This document shows positions 18,155 to 44,229 of a stretch of DNA of 64,000 bases, one piece after another. The stretch's first letter is position 1, and each line of letters opens with the position of its first letter. Position numbers and translations under genes: made by a program. Source of the DNA: Beroe forskalii (taxonomy: Eukaryota > Ctenophora > Nuda > Beroida > Beroidae); contig WFMF01000091.1 of assembly GCA_011033025.1 (NCBI GenBank), positions 1 through 64,000 of the forward strand. Reading direction: 5' to 3'. The notes under the pieces are model-generated. The model saw only the letters and a list, made by a program, of their open reading frames with translations, did no database searches and was not told the DNA's origin.

Positions 18155-20201
18155 CTACTGTCTGTCCACAGCACACTCGCAGCCCGCCCCTATCTTGTAA
18201 GGTGTTATCTCCCACATTTCGTAGCCCTGTTCGTCACAGCGACTCGTTCTTTTCTTCTTCAGCAGGTTTATGTACGCGTCAACCTAGGTTAACAGAATGT
18301 TGAAAGCTCCTGATTTAAAGTTTATCGTATCATTTAAACGTTTTAACTTGCTCTCTAAAATGTTGAAGGTAGTCTTTTCCATAATTGATTGCAACCAAAT
18401 AAGAAACAAGAGTCTTTACATTTATGAATGAGCGGTACAAATAACGTAATAATCAGAGGCGTGCCGTGGAGGGTCTAGTCAGCATATTTGGGGTGTGTAT
18501 GATTGATTGACTCAGGGGTTTGGGGGGCGGGCCCCCAACTGCTGGAGGCTATGCGCCGCAGGCGAAACCTCTGAAAATAGCTGAAAGAAGCACTCAAAAG
18601 TGCCTAAAACAAGTCTCATTTTACAAATTATACTATGTTTCAAAAGTTGTATTTTTTGCAAAATTTTAAATGCTCATATCATGTTGATGTACGAAATTCA
18701 TTATTCAAAGATCGCGAATACAAGGACGTAGGTATAACACTTCTACACGAGATCATTGGACACATTTACATCGGATCACTGGATCGAGAACACTGGAACG
18801 TCACAACACAAGATTATGGGACACAGGTACATCGGATCATTAGATCGAGAACACTGGAACATCGGATCATTACATCATGGAACACAGGTACGTCGGATCA
18901 TTAGATCGAGAACACTGAAACATTAGAGCACTACATCTTGGGTCACAGATACATCGGATCATTAGATCAAGAACACTTGAACATCAGAACACAGGTACGT
19001 CGGAATGTCGGATCATTAAATCGAGAAAACGGGAAAAATCAACAATCAATATGTTAATTAAAACTTATTTGTCACTATATCAATTTTGGCCGATTTCAAC
19101 CCCCCCTCAAAAATCCCAAAGAAAAAATCAGTCGCAAAACATTCGAGACGAGTAAAAAGTGACCGCGAAATCTAAAAGACAATGTTGAAATGGTACGTGT
19201 GCACTGCAAACTGAATGCGCGAAACTGAAAATCGGGGTGTCACGGGCACCCCATGCAATTAAAATACAGTAGGCACCCCGATTTCACGGCACGCCTAGGG
19301 AGATTGCAATTTTACAGTAGTACGGGGTGTATGAGAGTTTTACGACGCGCAGCGCGCGCTAGTTTTGCGGAGGAGAATTCAGTAAGATAAATGACAAAAT
19401 GCGCGGCGCAACGTTGACTAAACGGGGCATTCAGCGATGGACGCTAGGGCAATGATCGCGCGTGCGATCACCAAAATGATAAAAATAAAATTTGATTTTC
19501 TTAATTTTAGCGGGGTGTACATGGACACCCCAACACCCCCACGGCACGCCTCTGGTAATAATCAGAAGTATATTCACCGTTTGGCAGATTTTCCCGAACA
19601 TGCACTCCCTCAGCTCATCCTGACATTCCACAAATCTGAGATAGCGCGGGAAATACGTGTCTGAAAGAGCGTTAATTTAGTGGAAAGCTTGACTAGAAAT
19701 GTCAAGCGCGAATATAGCTAAAAAAGATTGGGCATAAGACCAGATATCGCTTTCGAAAGCATCAGCTTTAGAGTAACGCCGGTTCATTGTGAATTAATAT
19801 TCATGCCTCCGTATTTCATTCAAATCAGGCCCTTCCCATTTCACGATAGCATGGATATATTCCTGACCTGGTAACTGCACGAACTTGAGTCGAGACTGGC
19901 AGATTCCGTGTTCATTGTACTTGAGCGGGAACTTGGAGTTGAAGTTCTGATTCCAACTCATGTACTGTTCCAAGTACCCTGGGAAGGAAACCAGGGATTG
20001 AAAAAGGTTAAAATTACCCGGGGGATATGGCGATATTTCGTCAAAATTTGAAAGCGTGCCACTTCAAAGCTACATTGCGTTTCATTTCTCCAAACCTTTT
20101 CCGAGTTTTCCCAGTAAGCTCCTGTCATCTCGCTTTGTACACCGTTGCAGTGAGGCTTGTGCAAGGAGCACGAATAAGATCAGTACTGATAGTCTGATCA
20201 T
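18155..20201 (-). CDS. Small secreted protein with C-terminal GCEC motif, three exons
   Basis: Unrecognised family. On the minus strand: exon 1 20201-20096, exon 2 19978-19845, exon 3 18283-18155 (TAG), predicted 122 residues. Exon 1 starts MIRLSVLILFVLLAQASLQ, a clear signal peptide, followed by RCTKRDD and donor AAAAG|GTTTGG. Exon 2 follows acceptor CCTTCCCAG and includes NEHGICQSRLKFVQLPG. I chose donor ATC|GTGAAA because it is phase 0 and joins exon 3 (acceptor TAACCTAG), which encodes VDAYINLLKKKRTSRCDEQ and ends GYEMWEITPYKIGAGCECAV. The closing GCxC after a beta-strand-like stretch resembles the end of cystine-knot cytokines and growth factors (IL-17 or Spaetzle type), but this is only resemblance. 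If exon 2 is not spliced there, it runs to TAA at 19794 and gives a 96-residue secreted protein. Intron 2 contains a complete hAT-like element. Confidence 0.6.
18454..19554. mobile_element. hAT-like non-autonomous element, copy 1 (1,101 bp)
   Basis: Terminal inverted repeats CAGAGGCGTGCCGTGG at the left and CCACGGCACGCCTCTG at the right (one base differs). An exact 8-bp target-site duplication GTAATAAT occupies 18446-18453 and 19555-19562. An 8-bp duplication with CAG-type ends is characteristic of the hAT superfamily. There is no transposase frame. The interior has a GC-rich subterminal block (GGGGGGCGGGCCCCC) and a degenerate minisatellite (about 18765-19020) built on ATCGGATCATTAGATCGAGA. 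A near-identical copy lies at 33491-34603. Confidence 0.92.
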
Positions 20202-24273: not shown

Positions 24274-28884
<4,611 letters not shown>

Positions 28885-32116: not shown

Positions 32117-35100
32117 ACTGGACAGGTGCATCATGTCCCTCCTGGCTCCGTCATTTTCAGGTTAGAGAAAAGATATTTTTCGATTACAATAAGAGATTCA
32201 AATTTCCTTTGAAGACTAAAAGTAGAACAGAGAAAAAGATCTCGAAATAAATCATTAATGCTCAGTGAGTTGTCGAGTTGAACAAAACATCTATAGATCA
32301 ACTTCATGTTTCAGAGAATCGGGTACTGTTTGGAAGCGCAGGATCTACACCAGTGTCTACCAGCAGCCTCGATTCACAACCGTTATCTCAGATAAACTGA
32401 AATGTGAGATGTCCACCTTAGCTCAGGTTAGGAGTTGACGTTTCATGATGACTCACTTTTCAAGAAATCGCCACGATCTTTTTAAAATTTTTAACTCATA
32501 TTTGCGCGATCATACGTCGACGAGTATCATATCTGAAGGGAAAGTAAAAAGGACTCAATAAAGGCCCCTCATGGCGGTCAACAAATAAGCCATTGATGAG
32601 GTCATCTTCAGATGCGGCAAAGGCTGAGGAGCGTCATTAAACAGAGCATCGAGTGCAGGACTAGGTCCTGTGAAACCCCGGGAAGGATCGGACTCTTACT
32701 CTCAGGGGGGCTCAACTGCAGAATAATAGGACATGTGCTGCAGGAAATCAAGGTTCGGAATAATGGGGCATGTGTGGTAAGAATAGGTGTGAGAGGAAAC
32801 CTAAATCTCACCAAATTTCCCAAGAAATTAACAAAGTCAGCCTTGAGCTACCTAAAATATTAGCTCTTCAAAATGCGTCATCGCAGTCGAACGAGGGGCG
32901 AGCTTCGAAATGAACAAAAAATAATTCAGACAAAGCTTATTCTCCTCTTATCTCAGTAACTCTGCAGGTGGAGCGAATAAAAACCTTCTTCATCGGCACC
33001 AGGACAGCTCATGAGCGGGCCTCCAGTGCTCAAGGTGCACGGAGTATCGGGTCAGTGCACCACGACATTAACCTGGATACCAGGACAGCTTTCCAGGACA
33101 TCACACCGGTTATAGAGCTGATTGAGACCTACGATACTGCCTCGGTCAGGAAGGTGGGTGTTGGGTGACCATTGTCATTTGTTAGGTTATTAGGTGATGT
33201 GACTCATTTGTGCCAGGACTCGGTGGCCCGCCTTTGTAAATCGTTTGTGTAAGAACAGACAGAAAAATATTGCTCAATCTAAGGAGACAGTCAATGATCC
33301 TCAGTCAAATTAAACAAATTCCGAGTCTGGAGTTGTGAGGTAACGACAGGAATCACCAAGTCTGAAGGAAGTAACGCCATCCCTCCGTTAAGTGTGCGCG
33401 GGAAGCAGAAAAACGCCCAACATATCGATATATTAATTGATCCTCTGCCAAATCAACAAGAATTGCGCCTGCACCGACACAATTGTTGTTCAGAGGCGTG
33501 CCGTGGAGGGTCTAGTCAGCATATTTGGGGTGTACGGTACCGACTGACTCAGGGGGTTTGGGGGGCGGGCCCCCCAACCGCCGGAGGCTATGCGCCGCAG
33601 GCGAAACCTCTGGAAAATAGCTGAAAGAAGCACTCAAAAAGTGCCTAAAACAAGTCTCTTTTTACAAATTATACTATGTTTCAAAAGTTGTATTTTTTGC
33701 AAAATTTTAAATGCTCATATCATGTTGATGTACGAAATTCATTATTCAAAGATCGCGAATACAAGGACGTAGGTATAACACTTCTACACGAGATCATTGG
33801 ACATTTACATCGGATCACTGGATCGAGAACATGACTGGAACGTCACAACACAAGATTATGGGACACAGGTACATCGGATCATTAGATCGAGAACACTGGA
33901 ACATCGGATCATTACATCATGGAACACAGGTACGTCGGATCATTAGATCGAGAACACTGAAACATTACAGCACTACATCTTGGGTCACAGATACATCGGA
34001 TCATTAGATCAAGAACACTTGAACATCAGAACACAGGTACGTCGGAGTGTCGGATCATTAAATCGAGAAAACGGGAAAAATCAACAATTAATATGTTAAT
34101 TAAAACTTATTTGTCACTATATTTGTTCCGTCTTGAATCTTAGAAATCCGTCACAAGAAAGAAAAAATCAGTCGCAAAACATTCGAGACGAGTAAAAAGT
34201 GACCGCGAAATCTAAAAGACAATGTTGGAAATGGTACGTGTGCACTGCATGAATGCGCGAAACTGAAAATCGGGGGTGTCACGGGCACCCCCGCGCAATT
34301 AAAATACAGTAGGCACCCCGATTTCACGGCACGCCTAGGGAGATTGCAATTTTACAGTAGTACGGGGGTGTATGAGAGTTTTGACGCGCAGCGCGCAACA
34401 ATTGCGCGCTAGTTTTTGGAGGAGAATTCAGTAAGATAAATGACAAAATGCGCGGCGCAACGTTGACTAAACGGGGCATTCAGCGATGGACGCTAGGGCA
34501 ATGATCGCGCGTGCGATCACGGAAATGATAAAAATAAAATTTGATTTTCTTAATTTTAGCGGGGTGTACATGGACACCCCAACACCCCCACGGCACGCCT
34601 CTGTTGTTGTTGTTCCCGTAGGCTGTATGCAGGCGCTTAATTTCCCTCCCCCGCGATGCTTGATGTAACCTTAGCATCATAATACAAAACGCAATCGTAG
34701 TAAGAGTATAAATACTGTTCCGATGCACGTGCTGCGCGCGACCACCGAGAACACGAATTGGCACGTGCCATTTCTTCTAAAATTCTTGCGCGCGAGTTCG
34801 TTGTTGCACTCAGTTCGTTGTAGATTTCGCGCCATTTTGTTGAATTGGTTTACGTTTCGCATCAAATTGTGTCAGCGTTTATTCACGCAATGTATTTTCT
34901 TGAATGTTTATACTAAGTTGATATCACTTTTTATCTGACTTTCAAATTTCGTGCTTGTGTTTTCTGTTTTAATGCTGTCTCTTGTTCCAAAAAGCAATAT
35001 CTGTCTTTCACAGCGAAAAATATTTCTCAAACTTAGTCGAATCCAGCAGAAACTCTAAAGGTTATGCATTTGGTACTAATTCTAGAACAAAACCGAAGCC

Positions 35101-39729: not shown

Positions 39730-42700
39730 ATGACTGCTGGTCGGAGAAGCGGCAGCTTGAGCCACCACGGCGGCAGTCTGAGCGGCGCAAACCATCACCA
39801 AGGCGGCAGTGTGTCGGGGGAAAAGGATGAAGTGGACCCCATCACCATGCTCCTTTATCAACTTCACAACCAGTTGTCTCTCAAAGAGATAACGACCATG
39901 ACTGCTATTGTGGACGTGCCCTCTCAAATCAGGTATACTCACTTAACACGACTTTTTCAGAATCTTAATTTAAGATCACAATTATAGAATACACAGCAGC
40001 CTAATATAAAACCTAGAGCTTAACAAACTGTCTTATCCAAAAATCTCGTTTTCCAAGTTATCAGGCCTGACCCCCCACACGTGGGAAACTGAACCTTCAT
40101 CCCAGGTGCTATATAGAGGATGGAATAGACCTGTTCACCTACCTGACTAGTAAAGACAAGCTACACTCCGCCTACCTGGAGATGCTGCTGAGCAGCATCA
40201 GACGACCAGATCTGGTGGAAACTGTACAGAGGTTGGGAGAACCGAGAAATTTGAAATAAGTTATTTTTCTATAGACGGTAACATGCTACCCATTCGTCGA
40301 TGATGCGGCACTTTGCGCCTGTTCAAACAATCCAAATAAATGCATGGCAAACGCATGGAAAATGAAGATGGGGAGATTATACCTCATTTCGAAACTAAGC
40401 TTATATTACCCTTCTGAAACCACGTCATACTCAGACCACACACTCAACTTATCTCTTCACATCAGGTTTTATCAGAACGAGTGGCAGTACTCTGCATACG
40501 CCTACACGATAGAGACCTTCCGCGAAACAGGTGAGGTGCACAGTGCCAGTGCACAGCAAAACCTCGGGGAGAATAAACATGTTGCTTGCGATTCTATCAA
40601 ATCCTCACTGTCCCCGCACTTTCCCCTTATTCAGTCATTTTCAAGAGAGTGAAGTTATCAGGGAACCATATTAAGTAGCGACATCATTCAAATTTCAATA
40701 ACCATTGCTATTCTCAGGTGAGGTGCCCGTGGTGCCGCGCACGGCCTTCAAAACCGTGGAAATCACTGAGAAATACGCTTTTGACGTGTTCGTCCATCAC
40801 GCTGACGCAGACAGGGAATTCGCAGAGGAACTCATCGAGGTGAGTCAGGTGACGAAAAGAAGAACCTGTGAAATCAGGAAATCCAAGCCAATTACCACTT
40901 TTTTGGCAGCTCCCTCTATATATGAAATCTCCCAAATAAGATATTGAGACACTGCAGTCTACACCACTTCTCCACGATTCTGAACTCCCCCGCCCCCCAT
41001 TTGCAACCCCATCCCCCCCCCCCGATAAGAAAACGATACATAACACTACATATTTTCAACAGCGGTTGCAAGAGGAAGGGGTCACTATTCTGTACGGGGA
41101 TTTCAAGGACATCTGGACAGCGGATCCAGTGAGGTGCAGGTACTGCATTGCTATCATCAGTAAGAGCTACGTGCAGCTAGACTTGGCGGAGGAACTCGCG
41201 CTACTACTGGTAATTATATCAATTAGTCAATTAATTAAATAATTATTAATTTTTATTTTGATGAGGCATTTCTCAGAACCAGGAAATTGAAACTAAAACC
41301 CCCTTAGAACAGTAAATTAACCCTGACTAAACCCACCTCAGAACCAGGAAATTAACCCGGGCTTACCACCTTACTAACCCCCCTTAGAATCAAGAAATCA
41401 ACCCGGGCTTAAAATTAACTCTTCAAACCCCCCCAGAACCAGGAGATTAACCGGGAGCGTCCCTGAAGAACATCATCCCAATCCTGAGCGGGATGTCTCC
41501 GGACTTCCTGGCGGAGATGTGTCCTTCCCTGGAGCAGGTCTCTCAGTTCAGCTTCATTGGGGGCATTGGGGAGTATCTCAAGCAGACCGTCAACATCATC
41601 CACAAGGGTAACGATTCCTAATGTGACATAATGTGGATTCTTTGATTCCGAAATTTGAAATAAAACTTTGTATTTTTGTGAAAGCATAAATTTCGAAATG
41701 TGCCTTGGTGATACCACTGTGAGACCACTGTATAGTGTATATGTAATGAGTAATTGAGTAAAGACTCAATATAAATCAATTAAAGCTTTTAACGCCTTGA
41801 TAAATGCCTGCAGGACTGAAAACCTCCATAAACAACTGGTATAAGCCGGCTGCAACCCTGCACTGCACTTCCAAACACCAATCAGGTTTCAACTTCAAAA
41901 TTAAACACCAATCAGGTGTAGACATTTCTACAGCCTATAGATCTCGAATTTATTCCAATAAATTTTATAATCTGGCGTTGCTTACAATCACACACTTTGT
42001 AAATAACAACATTTGACACAATAGCTGCTCGGACTGAACATCGTGACGTCATTGTGACGTCACTACAAGCTCTGCTACGCGCTATAAGTATAAAATATGA
42101 CTTAACCGTTTAGTTTCTAATGTTTACTTGTGATTGTTCTGAATGCTTGTTCACGCTGTTCATATTGGTCCTCGCTCAGGCAAAAGTCAGAAGTTTGACG
42201 TGAGTCTGGCCTCTGTGGACAGGTTTACCGTGGGGAGAAGTGAGTTTAGTGTACTCTTCAGAGGGGATAAAGGTAAGCACTGATTGGGTAAAACGTTCAT
42301 ATAGGGTAACTATTGGGTCACGAGGATTTGATATCTGGAAATCTCAATGAATCATGCTCGTTACAAGAAAATAAGCAGTTTTAAAAGTTTATGTACTCAA
42401 GGTCCTAAAGACTTATTAAAGGTCGATTACAGAAAAATTGAAAAGAACTATCAAATTACGTCAGAACATGAAAATTTATGCAAAGACGTTAACCGTGACA
42501 GAAAACATGATATAGACACTCTTGCGCAGGAATCAAAGGGCTGCGTGACACCTCTCAGAACGGGCACTGCGTGATAGAAACGGATGTGAGGGAGGGAGGG
42601 CGGCAGTGCGTGTGTGTTAGAAGCATGGGGCACCCTCTCACCTTCGTAGCAGTAACTTCTCCTATCTACATACCCCATGGTAAGTAAGAATGGGGCACCC

Positions 42701-44229
42701 ACTCACTTTCGTAGCAGTCACATCCCCCATCTACATACCCCATGGTAAGTAAGAATGGGGCACCCTCTCACATTTGTAGCAGTCACTTCCCCCATCTACA
42801 TACCCCATGGTGAGTAAGCATGGGGCATCCTCTGACTTTCGTAGCAGTCACTTCCCCTATCTACATACCCCATGGTGAGTAAGAATGGAGCACCCTCTCA
42901 CTTTCGTAGCAGTCACTTCCCCTATCTACATACCCCATGGTAAGAAGATGATGGCAACCAATAGTCCTTGAAAACTAGAATCTCCTGAAATCCTTAGAAT
43001 TACAGCTCCTAAAGAAGCAGGTAATGATTCTTACTAGGTTTTCCAGGTGTTTCTAACCTCTTGATAGTCCTTAATTCCTTTAAGACTATCCTTTTTCAGG
43101 TGTTTCTAACCTCCTGATAGGACGGGAGTGGATCAGTATTGCGTCTAAGAGGAATGCCTCACAATGCAACGCTAAGATACGGCTAACGTGAGTTTCTCAT
43201 GTGCTGAGAATCACAGAAATCAGGAAATCTTTAGGAACAGATCATCAAACCTTAGCGAATTAGATTTTCTTTGGTTGACAATCCATGATAGTCAACTATC
43301 AAAAATGTAGTTCAAGAAAAATGTGACCGTTTAAAAGAAACAAATTCTAATATTCCATTTTCACGTATAACAATGATGTGGACGGGCTGGAGATAAAGAT
43401 AGTGAACCCCAACATAAAGGAAGAGGCCTGTTTTGTGTCGTCAGTGATCATTGGGTCCGGGGATGGGTCCAACTTAAAACTAACAGTAAGATACTTTGGT
43501 ATTGTGTTAAACTTACTTTTATGGTGAAATGCTTCAAGAGTCAAATCAGCAATTCACGGGCGCAGAGATTTGGCAAATACCGCGTAATGATCGCAAACTT
43601 CAGTGCACTCCGGCGGCGAATAGTCCGAGGTCTTCTATAGAATACAGAACTCCTGATTCACTTTATTGCCAGGAGTTAGCAAGGAATTGACCAATCAGCG
43701 CTTGAATAGCCCGTTAACTCGTTGCTCATTGGTCCACACAACCCTCCCCCGCAGGTTCCAGGAGTTAACATAGCGAAGCAGCACTGCAAACTGACAAGGA
43801 CGGAGGCAGGCTGGTTGCTGATGCCGTGCGGGCCCGCCTGCCATATCTTCCTGCAGCTTCCCAGGGAACCGGGGAGTGAGAGGGTTTACGTGCCCTCAGG
43901 GGGAGAAATCTTAGTCGGTGAGTCTATTATCCAACTTACACAGCCTCGGCTTCGCCTCGACCGTGTGGGTTGCGGTATACGGTCACCATTTCGCCATGTA
44001 CCCACATTGCAAGTATTGACTGTTTGGCAGTCACTATGATATGCTATCAGCTGATTCATGCAATTTGGTTGGGTTGAAACGGGTCATGAGACATTGCGCA
44101 ACATCTCCCCTTGCAGGAACGCACAGCACCATCAGAGCGGTGATTAACGAGGAGGAAGCCGAGGGGAATGAGGACGAGGGGATAGGGCTCTCAGAAACAC
44201 TCTCCAGAATGTCGGGAAAAACTGCGTGA
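39730..44229 (+). CDS. DED-TIR-FHA-like multidomain protein, eleven exons
   Basis: Exons: 39730-39932, 40106-40231, 40466-40530, 40718-40839, 41063-41209, 41437-41607, 42180-42272, 43100-43187, 43371-43485, 43755-43917, 44117-44229 (TGA); about 468 residues if one base lost near 41460 is allowed for. After a Ser/Gly/His-rich head, residues ~37-112 match a death-effector domain: MLLYQLHNQLSLKEI, DGIDLFTYLTSKDKL and the hallmark RPDL at 101-104. Residues ~151-279 are a TIR domain: YAFDVFVHHADADREFAEEL, VTILYGDFKDIW, CIAIISKSYVQLDLAEEL, with Glu215/216 where NAD-cleaving TIRs have their glutamate. Residues ~355-460 resemble an FHA domain (VIIGSGDGSNLKL, IAKQHCKL, GGEILVGG), but the phosphothreonine-binding Arg of 'GR' is Ser. 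DED and TIR suggest innate-immune or cell-death signalling; that is inference. The acceptor of exon 9 lacks AG (ATAA|CAATGATG). Confidence 0.85.
41270..41460 (+). repeat. Exon 6 start copied four times inside the preceding intron
   Basis: The motif (C/T)(T/C)CAGAACCAGGARATTAAC followed by CCGGG, which begins exon 6 at 41437 (AACCAGGAGATTAACCGGGA), also occurs in diverged form at about 41274, 41306, 41338 and 41385, each preceded by a pyrimidine run and (C/T)AG. Confidence 0.85.
42612..42945 (+). repeat. 65-bp tandem repeat, five copies, each with a consensus 5' splice site
   Basis: Located in the intron between exons 7 and 8 of the DED-TIR gene. CATG|GTAAGTAAG or GTGAGTAAG recurs at 42679, 42744, 42809 and 42874, and a final CATGGTAAGAAG at 42939. 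Each unit also contains TTTCGTAGCAGTCACTTCC, acceptor-like, so every unit reads like a miniature acceptor-exon-donor cassette. Confidence 0.9.
43035..43125 (+). repeat. Duplicated acceptor of DED-TIR exon 8
   Basis: CCAGGTGTTTCTAACCTCYT followed by GATAG occurs at 43044 and again at 43097, 53 bp apart. The second is used for exon 8. Use of the first shifts the frame. Confidence 0.85.

Follow-up and report, generated by a model that had tools for sequence, protein, structure and literature searches.

What could a single protein of a ctenophore do with a death-effector domain (DED), a TIR domain and an FHA-like part? This question is raised by positions 39,730 to 44,229 of a 64,000-nucleotide stretch of the Beroe forskalii genome (contig WFMF01000091.1, positions 1 to 64,000, assembly GCA_011033025.1; hereafter, the window). 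A preliminary description of the locus had suggested that its product could couple a phospho-signal to NAD loss or to death-fold assembly. With moderate confidence, we read the gene as encoding a cytoplasmic scaffold adaptor, with its domains in the order of MyD88, rather than a phospho-sensor or a proven NADase. Support for this reading comes from the DED and TIR_2 profiles, which exceed their curated cut-offs when the domains are cut out, and from the presence of a caspase gene in the same genome.

Exon structure, DED and TIR domain

The gene lies on the + strand and comprises 12 exons, which open with an ATG at 39730, close with a TGA whose last base is 44229 and join into a protein of 518 amino acids with an X at one frame break. 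Within it, the Pfam matches follow one another in the order DED, TIR and FHA-like, as had been described. The GC content of the exons ranges from 0.47 to 0.59 and that of the 11 introns from 0.32 to 0.49, and GC at third codon positions (GC3) reaches 0.65 over all exons (0.53–0.77 per exon), compared with 0.47 for the first and second positions. The 12 exons show no further break or stop when read in these frames. Nine of the 11 junctions are GT-AG and phase-consistent; nine right phases out of nine would be expected by chance once in 19,683, a flattering figure, as the exons had been picked for open frames. The in-phase joining stated earlier is thus borne out at these nine junctions, but not at the passage from exon 5 to exon 6, which breaks the frame, nor at exon 10, which has no AG acceptor.

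The DED is built from the first three exons. Exon 1 (39730–39932; GC 0.547), running from the ATG to a GT donor, encodes a low-complexity N-terminus and the first part of the domain (residue 41 at 39850); exon 2 (40106–40231) contributes most of it, including the RPDL motif, and exon 3 (40466–40530) its end and a linker, both exons being GT-AG and in phase. Pfam DED (PF01335) matches residues 41–111 of the joined protein with an E value of 5.6e-8 and 33.3 bits, under the cut-off of 35.9, and exons 1–3 alone score 36.1 bits, just over it. The best relatives among solved structures are FADD (E 3.5e-5) and then PEA-15 (E 0.0026). FADD continues with a death domain, and PEA-15 has one DED. Features of a DED are the RxDL motif, a charged Glu before it and a hydrophobic patch. 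In the alignment, RPDL falls on the RHDL of FADD, at the place expected in the preliminary description, and the Glu of LSLKE, which precedes it, falls on a Glu of that protein; in the hydrophobic patch, Ala takes the place of the FADD Phe. Since both the Glu and the RxDL motif are retained in the DED, death-fold assembly, one of the two outcomes envisaged at first, would be the best supported function, as judged from sequence.

The TIR domain occupies exon 4 (40718–40839; linker and TIR start, with residue 155 at about 40786), exon 5 (41063–41209; the core, which aligns to AbTIR and holds the glutamate of LDLAEEL) and exon 6 (41437–41607; the TIR end). Exon 4 and the 5' side of exon 5 are GT-AG and in phase, and exon 6 is read in frame 0 and then in frame 2, with the shift inside 41437–41460. 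Pfam TIR_2 (PF13676) matches residues 155–240 of the joined protein (E 7.7e-7, 30.1 bits, cut-off 28), and the domain alone gives 33.9 bits over profile positions 1–92 of 122. Its best relatives among solved TIRs are three bacterial-type entries, with E values of 0.00042, 0.00088 (AbTIR, whose entry is annotated as an NAD(+) hydrolase) and 0.0019, and MyD88 chains score no better than chance (E 0.47 or above). The same search also returned chance-level non-TIR chains, with a cytochrome (E 0.018) ahead of further TIRs (0.088 and worse). In NCBIfam, a retron-protein TIR was matched with E 0.00042 and 19.2 bits (cut-off 600), along with a chance-like serC_2 (E 0.21).

In NAD-cleaving TIRs the Glu is catalytic, and a preceding aromatic residue and a full BB-loop region define the enzymes. 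In the helix after betaC, the Glu of AbTIR is matched by the second Glu of LDLAEEL, so that the retained glutamate noticed earlier is confirmed, and the spacing that follows, EL...E(M/I)N, is that of AbTIR. The Trp found in AbTIR four residues before this Glu is Leu here, and the betaB-betaC region is without nine AbTIR residues and has one extra, being a net eight residues shorter. A catalytic effector, in which DED-driven assembly would gather the TIRs and activate NAD cleavage in the manner of SARM1 or of bacterial TIRs, has in its favor the conserved Glu with its spacing and the bacterial nature of the nearest solved relatives, one of them an annotated hydrolase; it has to contend, however, with the loss of the Trp, with the shortened betaB-betaC region and with the fact that four of the five possible GT/GC-AG splices between exons 5 and 6 lose the Glu helix, and we consider it quite improbable. 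SARM1 further carries SAM and ARM domains, and neither family is found by Pfam in the joined protein. NAD cleavage by this TIR is possible, though less likely than a scaffold role, and the NAD loss first suggested is doubtful.

The degenerate C-terminal part

The C-terminal part is encoded by exon 10 (43371–43485; residue 414 at about 43453), where the FHA-like domain starts, exon 11 (43755–43917; GT-AG, in phase), which carries most of it, and exon 12 (44117–44229; AG acceptor, in phase), with its end, an acidic tail and the TGA stop. In the joined protein, Pfam FHA (PF00498) matches residues 414–480 with E 0.019 and 15.8 bits, short of the cut-off of 20.7. The best cut (exons 10–12) covers the profile from position 1 to 67 of 67 with E 0.0015 and 19.4 bits, and a second family, Yop-YscD_cpl, which we take to be a member of the FHA clan, appears in it with E 0.16. 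Alignment by hhalign to a profile of seven FHA pieces of this genome, the first-named of which is presumably kinesin-like (the name is our own), extends over 66 columns with a probability of 51.6% and P 1.5e-4; none of 150 shuffles was as good, and a stretch of the TIR, used as a control, reached 0.3%.

The residues that contact phosphothreonine are absent: GSG stands where GR is usual, confirming that the usual Arg is missing, and there is no Asn in place. The His is kept, and the usual Ser three residues before it is Ala; this Ser is likewise absent from two kinesin-like FHAs of this genome. With the Arg, Ser and Asn positions replaced, a phosphothreonine reader is unlikely, and so is the reading of a phospho-signal first proposed. 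Judged by these residues, the C-terminal part is a degenerate fold without the known phosphothreonine-reading chemistry. The FHA-like fold claimed initially is upheld in so far as the whole profile is covered and the FHAs of the genome align to it, but it is degenerate and stays below the Pfam cut-off.

The region between the TIR domain and this fold is encoded by exon 7 (42180–42272), exon 8 (42530–42679) and exon 9 (43100–43187), the first two GT-AG and in phase, as is the 5' side of the third. No family exceeds its cut-off in exon 7, a linker region with a candidate further FHA-like unit, and exons 8 and 9 likewise encode linker. The 3' end of exon 8 and its splice donor are repeated downstream in an array of a 65-base unit (42621–42948; about 5 copies), which places several donors in a row, each changing the frame. 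A second FHA unit in exons 7–9 (VGRS ... GHCVIE ... LLIG) is at most a candidate. The only Pfam family found there at E up to 10 is ANKRD13_C (0.008, 16.1 bits, cut-off 25, 29 residues), which is chance-like in the joined protein (E 0.077), and a shorter cut gives no Pfam family. In pairwise alignment of exons 7–9 with the C-terminal unit, 769 of 3000 shuffles were as good in local mode and 2511 of 3000 in end-gap-free global mode. With hhalign, only 13 columns were aligned (probability 3.1%, P 0.014; no shuffle as high in 150), and no FHA was matched among solved structures.

Irregular junctions and evidence against an adaptor

Several observations weigh against the adaptor reading. The FHA profile remains below its cut-off of 20.7 bits in every cut (17.7, 18.4 and 19.4), and the FHA-like part matches no FHA among solved structures, the best match being an aldolase (E 0.049). 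No partner for the DED was found either. Our profile searches of the assembly (216 Mb, 1134 contigs, the window being part of contig C1036) were run exon by exon, with E up to 0.1 for DED, Death and FHA and 0.001 for other families, and the counts that they give are lower bounds; in this weak search for a DED, one match among three candidates was obtained, namely exon 2 of this gene. At the caspase locus on contig C313 (L051), caspase is the only family that Pfam recognises in the three minus-strand frames, and a search of separate pieces likewise yielded no DED. Two junctions, moreover, are irregular. That between exons 5 and 6 is GT-AG yet out of phase: the TIR end in exon 6 needs frame 2, while frame 0 is required for the first residues of the exon and for its junction with exon 5. 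That between exons 9 and 10 is in phase only at a non-AG site, there being no usable AG before exon 10. These irregularities imply that the gene may be broken and, since the FHA-like exons depend on the second junction, that the C-terminal part may lie outside the protein.

We explored both junctions with a script that combined GT or GC donors with AG acceptors over the two introns and the nearby exon ends, with no extra exons between. Five in-frame splices join exons 5 and 6 (two with GT and three with GC donors), all of them to the acceptor at 41458, which is poor and has no pyrimidine tract, and four of the five delete the LDLAEEL helix. Just ahead of the frame break, at 41292–41411 in intron 5, lie tandem copies of 34 and 46 bases that look like the exon 6 acceptor and the beginning of that exon. 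The irregular junctions may reflect errors in the assembly, allelic damage or an unusual mode of splicing.

The main rival explanation is that the locus is a decaying or allelic non-functional copy, whose breaks would be genuine and which would yield no full-length protein. This would fit the out-of-phase junction 5/6 and the missing AG at junction 9/10, as well as the tandem repeats, which duplicate the exon 8 donor and, in intron 5, closely precede the acceptor of exon 6. A decaying copy would sit less well with the otherwise uninterrupted frames of the 12 exons, with a GC3 of 0.53–0.77 in every exon and with a DED and a TIR that still score above their cut-offs when taken alone. In addition, a whole-protein search of the assembly (E up to 1) gave 16 matches, all in this gene. 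With no second copy seen, an intact counterpart of which it could be the pseudogene is lacking, and the breaks are no less likely to stem from an error of assembly. Nor was there a close paralog by tblastn, whose best E was 3.6 over 39 of the 52 genome loci (those other than window loci L009–L021). Altogether, we regard a non-functional copy as unlikely, if a serious alternative.

The absence of any GT/GC-AG splice from exon 9 to exon 10 bears on a further alternative, in which two genes or alternative transcripts yield a DED-TIR protein (exons 1–6 or 1–9) and a separate FHA-like product. Intronic poly(A)-like AATAAA signals at 40335, 40572, 41659 and 41957 point in the same direction, but such signals are no commoner than chance (2 found against 3.4 expected, in locus L010 only) and the chain of phases continues through exons 10–12. 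We deem this arrangement improbable; on the adaptor reading, one transcript would carry the DED, the TIR and the FHA-like part together.

Working of the proposed adaptor, known systems and genome context

If the adaptor reading is correct, the protein would reside in the cytoplasm and assemble there with partners, with a probable role in immunity or cell death. The DED would nucleate or join a death-fold assembly, the TIR domain would receive or spread a signal by contact with other TIRs, and the degenerate FHA-like fold might dock a partner independently of phosphothreonine. Its working would be MyD88-like, a death fold followed by a TIR, with the DED replacing the death domain and a C-terminal module added. 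MyD88 indeed shares an N-terminal death-superfamily domain followed by a TIR; it differs in that its domain is a death domain (PF00531), whereas the family found here is DED and not Death, in that the present TIR belongs to TIR_2 and is closer to bacterial TIRs, and in the long C-terminal extension with the FHA-like fold.

Among early-branching animals, placozoan CARD-TIR and SEFIR-DD MyD88-like proteins (PMC6321704) also combine a death fold with a TIR or SEFIR domain; they contain CARD or death domains instead of a DED, and FHA is unmentioned in that article. In the ctenophore Mnemiopsis leidyi, one TIR_2 protein carries a death domain and, according to PMC11797021, "might be considered as Myd88-like"; it thus unites a death fold and TIR_2 in one ctenophore protein, with no DED mentioned for it and no FHA mentioned in that article, and may be an ortholog of the present gene. 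The same study reports that Mnemiopsis has 15 TIR_2 genes, that PF01582 is missing from three ctenophores and that DED genes number one or very few; in its tree, no ctenophore TIR groups with MyD88, which, as it notes, might suggest that MyD88 is absent. A DED-TIR-FHA protein is not described in the sources covered, mostly outside subscription journals, among them passages of PMC8195603, PMC5094078, PMC6321704, PMC2575513, PMC12909245 and PMC11797021; an earlier report in the bivalve/metazoan TIR survey cited by PMC6321704 is possible.

Provided that one transcript has all three parts, the gene would represent an animal adaptor that skips the usual relay of FADD and MyD88, its DED and TIR sharing a single chain, and would bear on how ctenophores, thought to be without MyD88, connect TIR proteins to cell death. 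We put forward, very tentatively, the further idea that it is a separately assembled adaptor doing the job of MyD88 in a lineage for which the absence of MyD88 and Toll-like receptors has been suggested, with bacterial-type TIR signalling tied directly to death-effector assembly in one chain. As the DED of this gene is the only one found in the genome by the exon-by-exon search, the question of its partner is directly testable.

The remaining genome searches set the gene among other candidates of the same families. Of 15 TIR_2 candidates, 10 were matches, spread over 8 contigs; the search missed the window gene itself, presumably because of its short exons. Classic TIR (PF01582) was matched by two of four candidates, both at sites already found with TIR_2. 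Death domains (five of seven candidates, in a search in which two bacterial controls also responded, below the cut-off) lie on none of the eight contigs with TIR_2 matches, and consequently no rival gene joining a death fold to a TIR is seen. The TIR_2 gene on contig C415 (43153–43422) shows TIR families only, with neither DED nor FHA beside it in three minus-strand frames of its locus (L053); by eye, its end (ILPLW..V) resembles that of AbTIR. All five caspase-family candidates were matched, on three contigs, and three of the stretches fall in one gene with a joint E of 3.8e-28. By eye, the genome also has paracaspase-like exons (L028), with an Ig-like stretch that recalls MALT1, and metacaspase-like ones (L031). 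FHA was matched by 18 of 24 candidates, innexin by 13 of 29 (8 contigs) and Wnt by 11 of 13 (6 contigs). Innexins argue against a sponge or a placozoan, and the small number of Wnts, together with a TIR_2 set in which classic TIRs are nearly missing, against a cnidarian; this family content agrees best with a ctenophore.

Elsewhere in the window, ten open frames gave no family over its cut-off. An open frame at 24320–24673 starts, by eye, like UDP-galactose 4-epimerase, and a Pfam scan with E up to 0.1 assigned it no family. At 27150–28453 there is a 20-base satellite, repeated about 65 times with 87% match, and the arrays at 18745–18993 and 33806–34034, 15 kb apart, are apparently made of the same 61-base unit.

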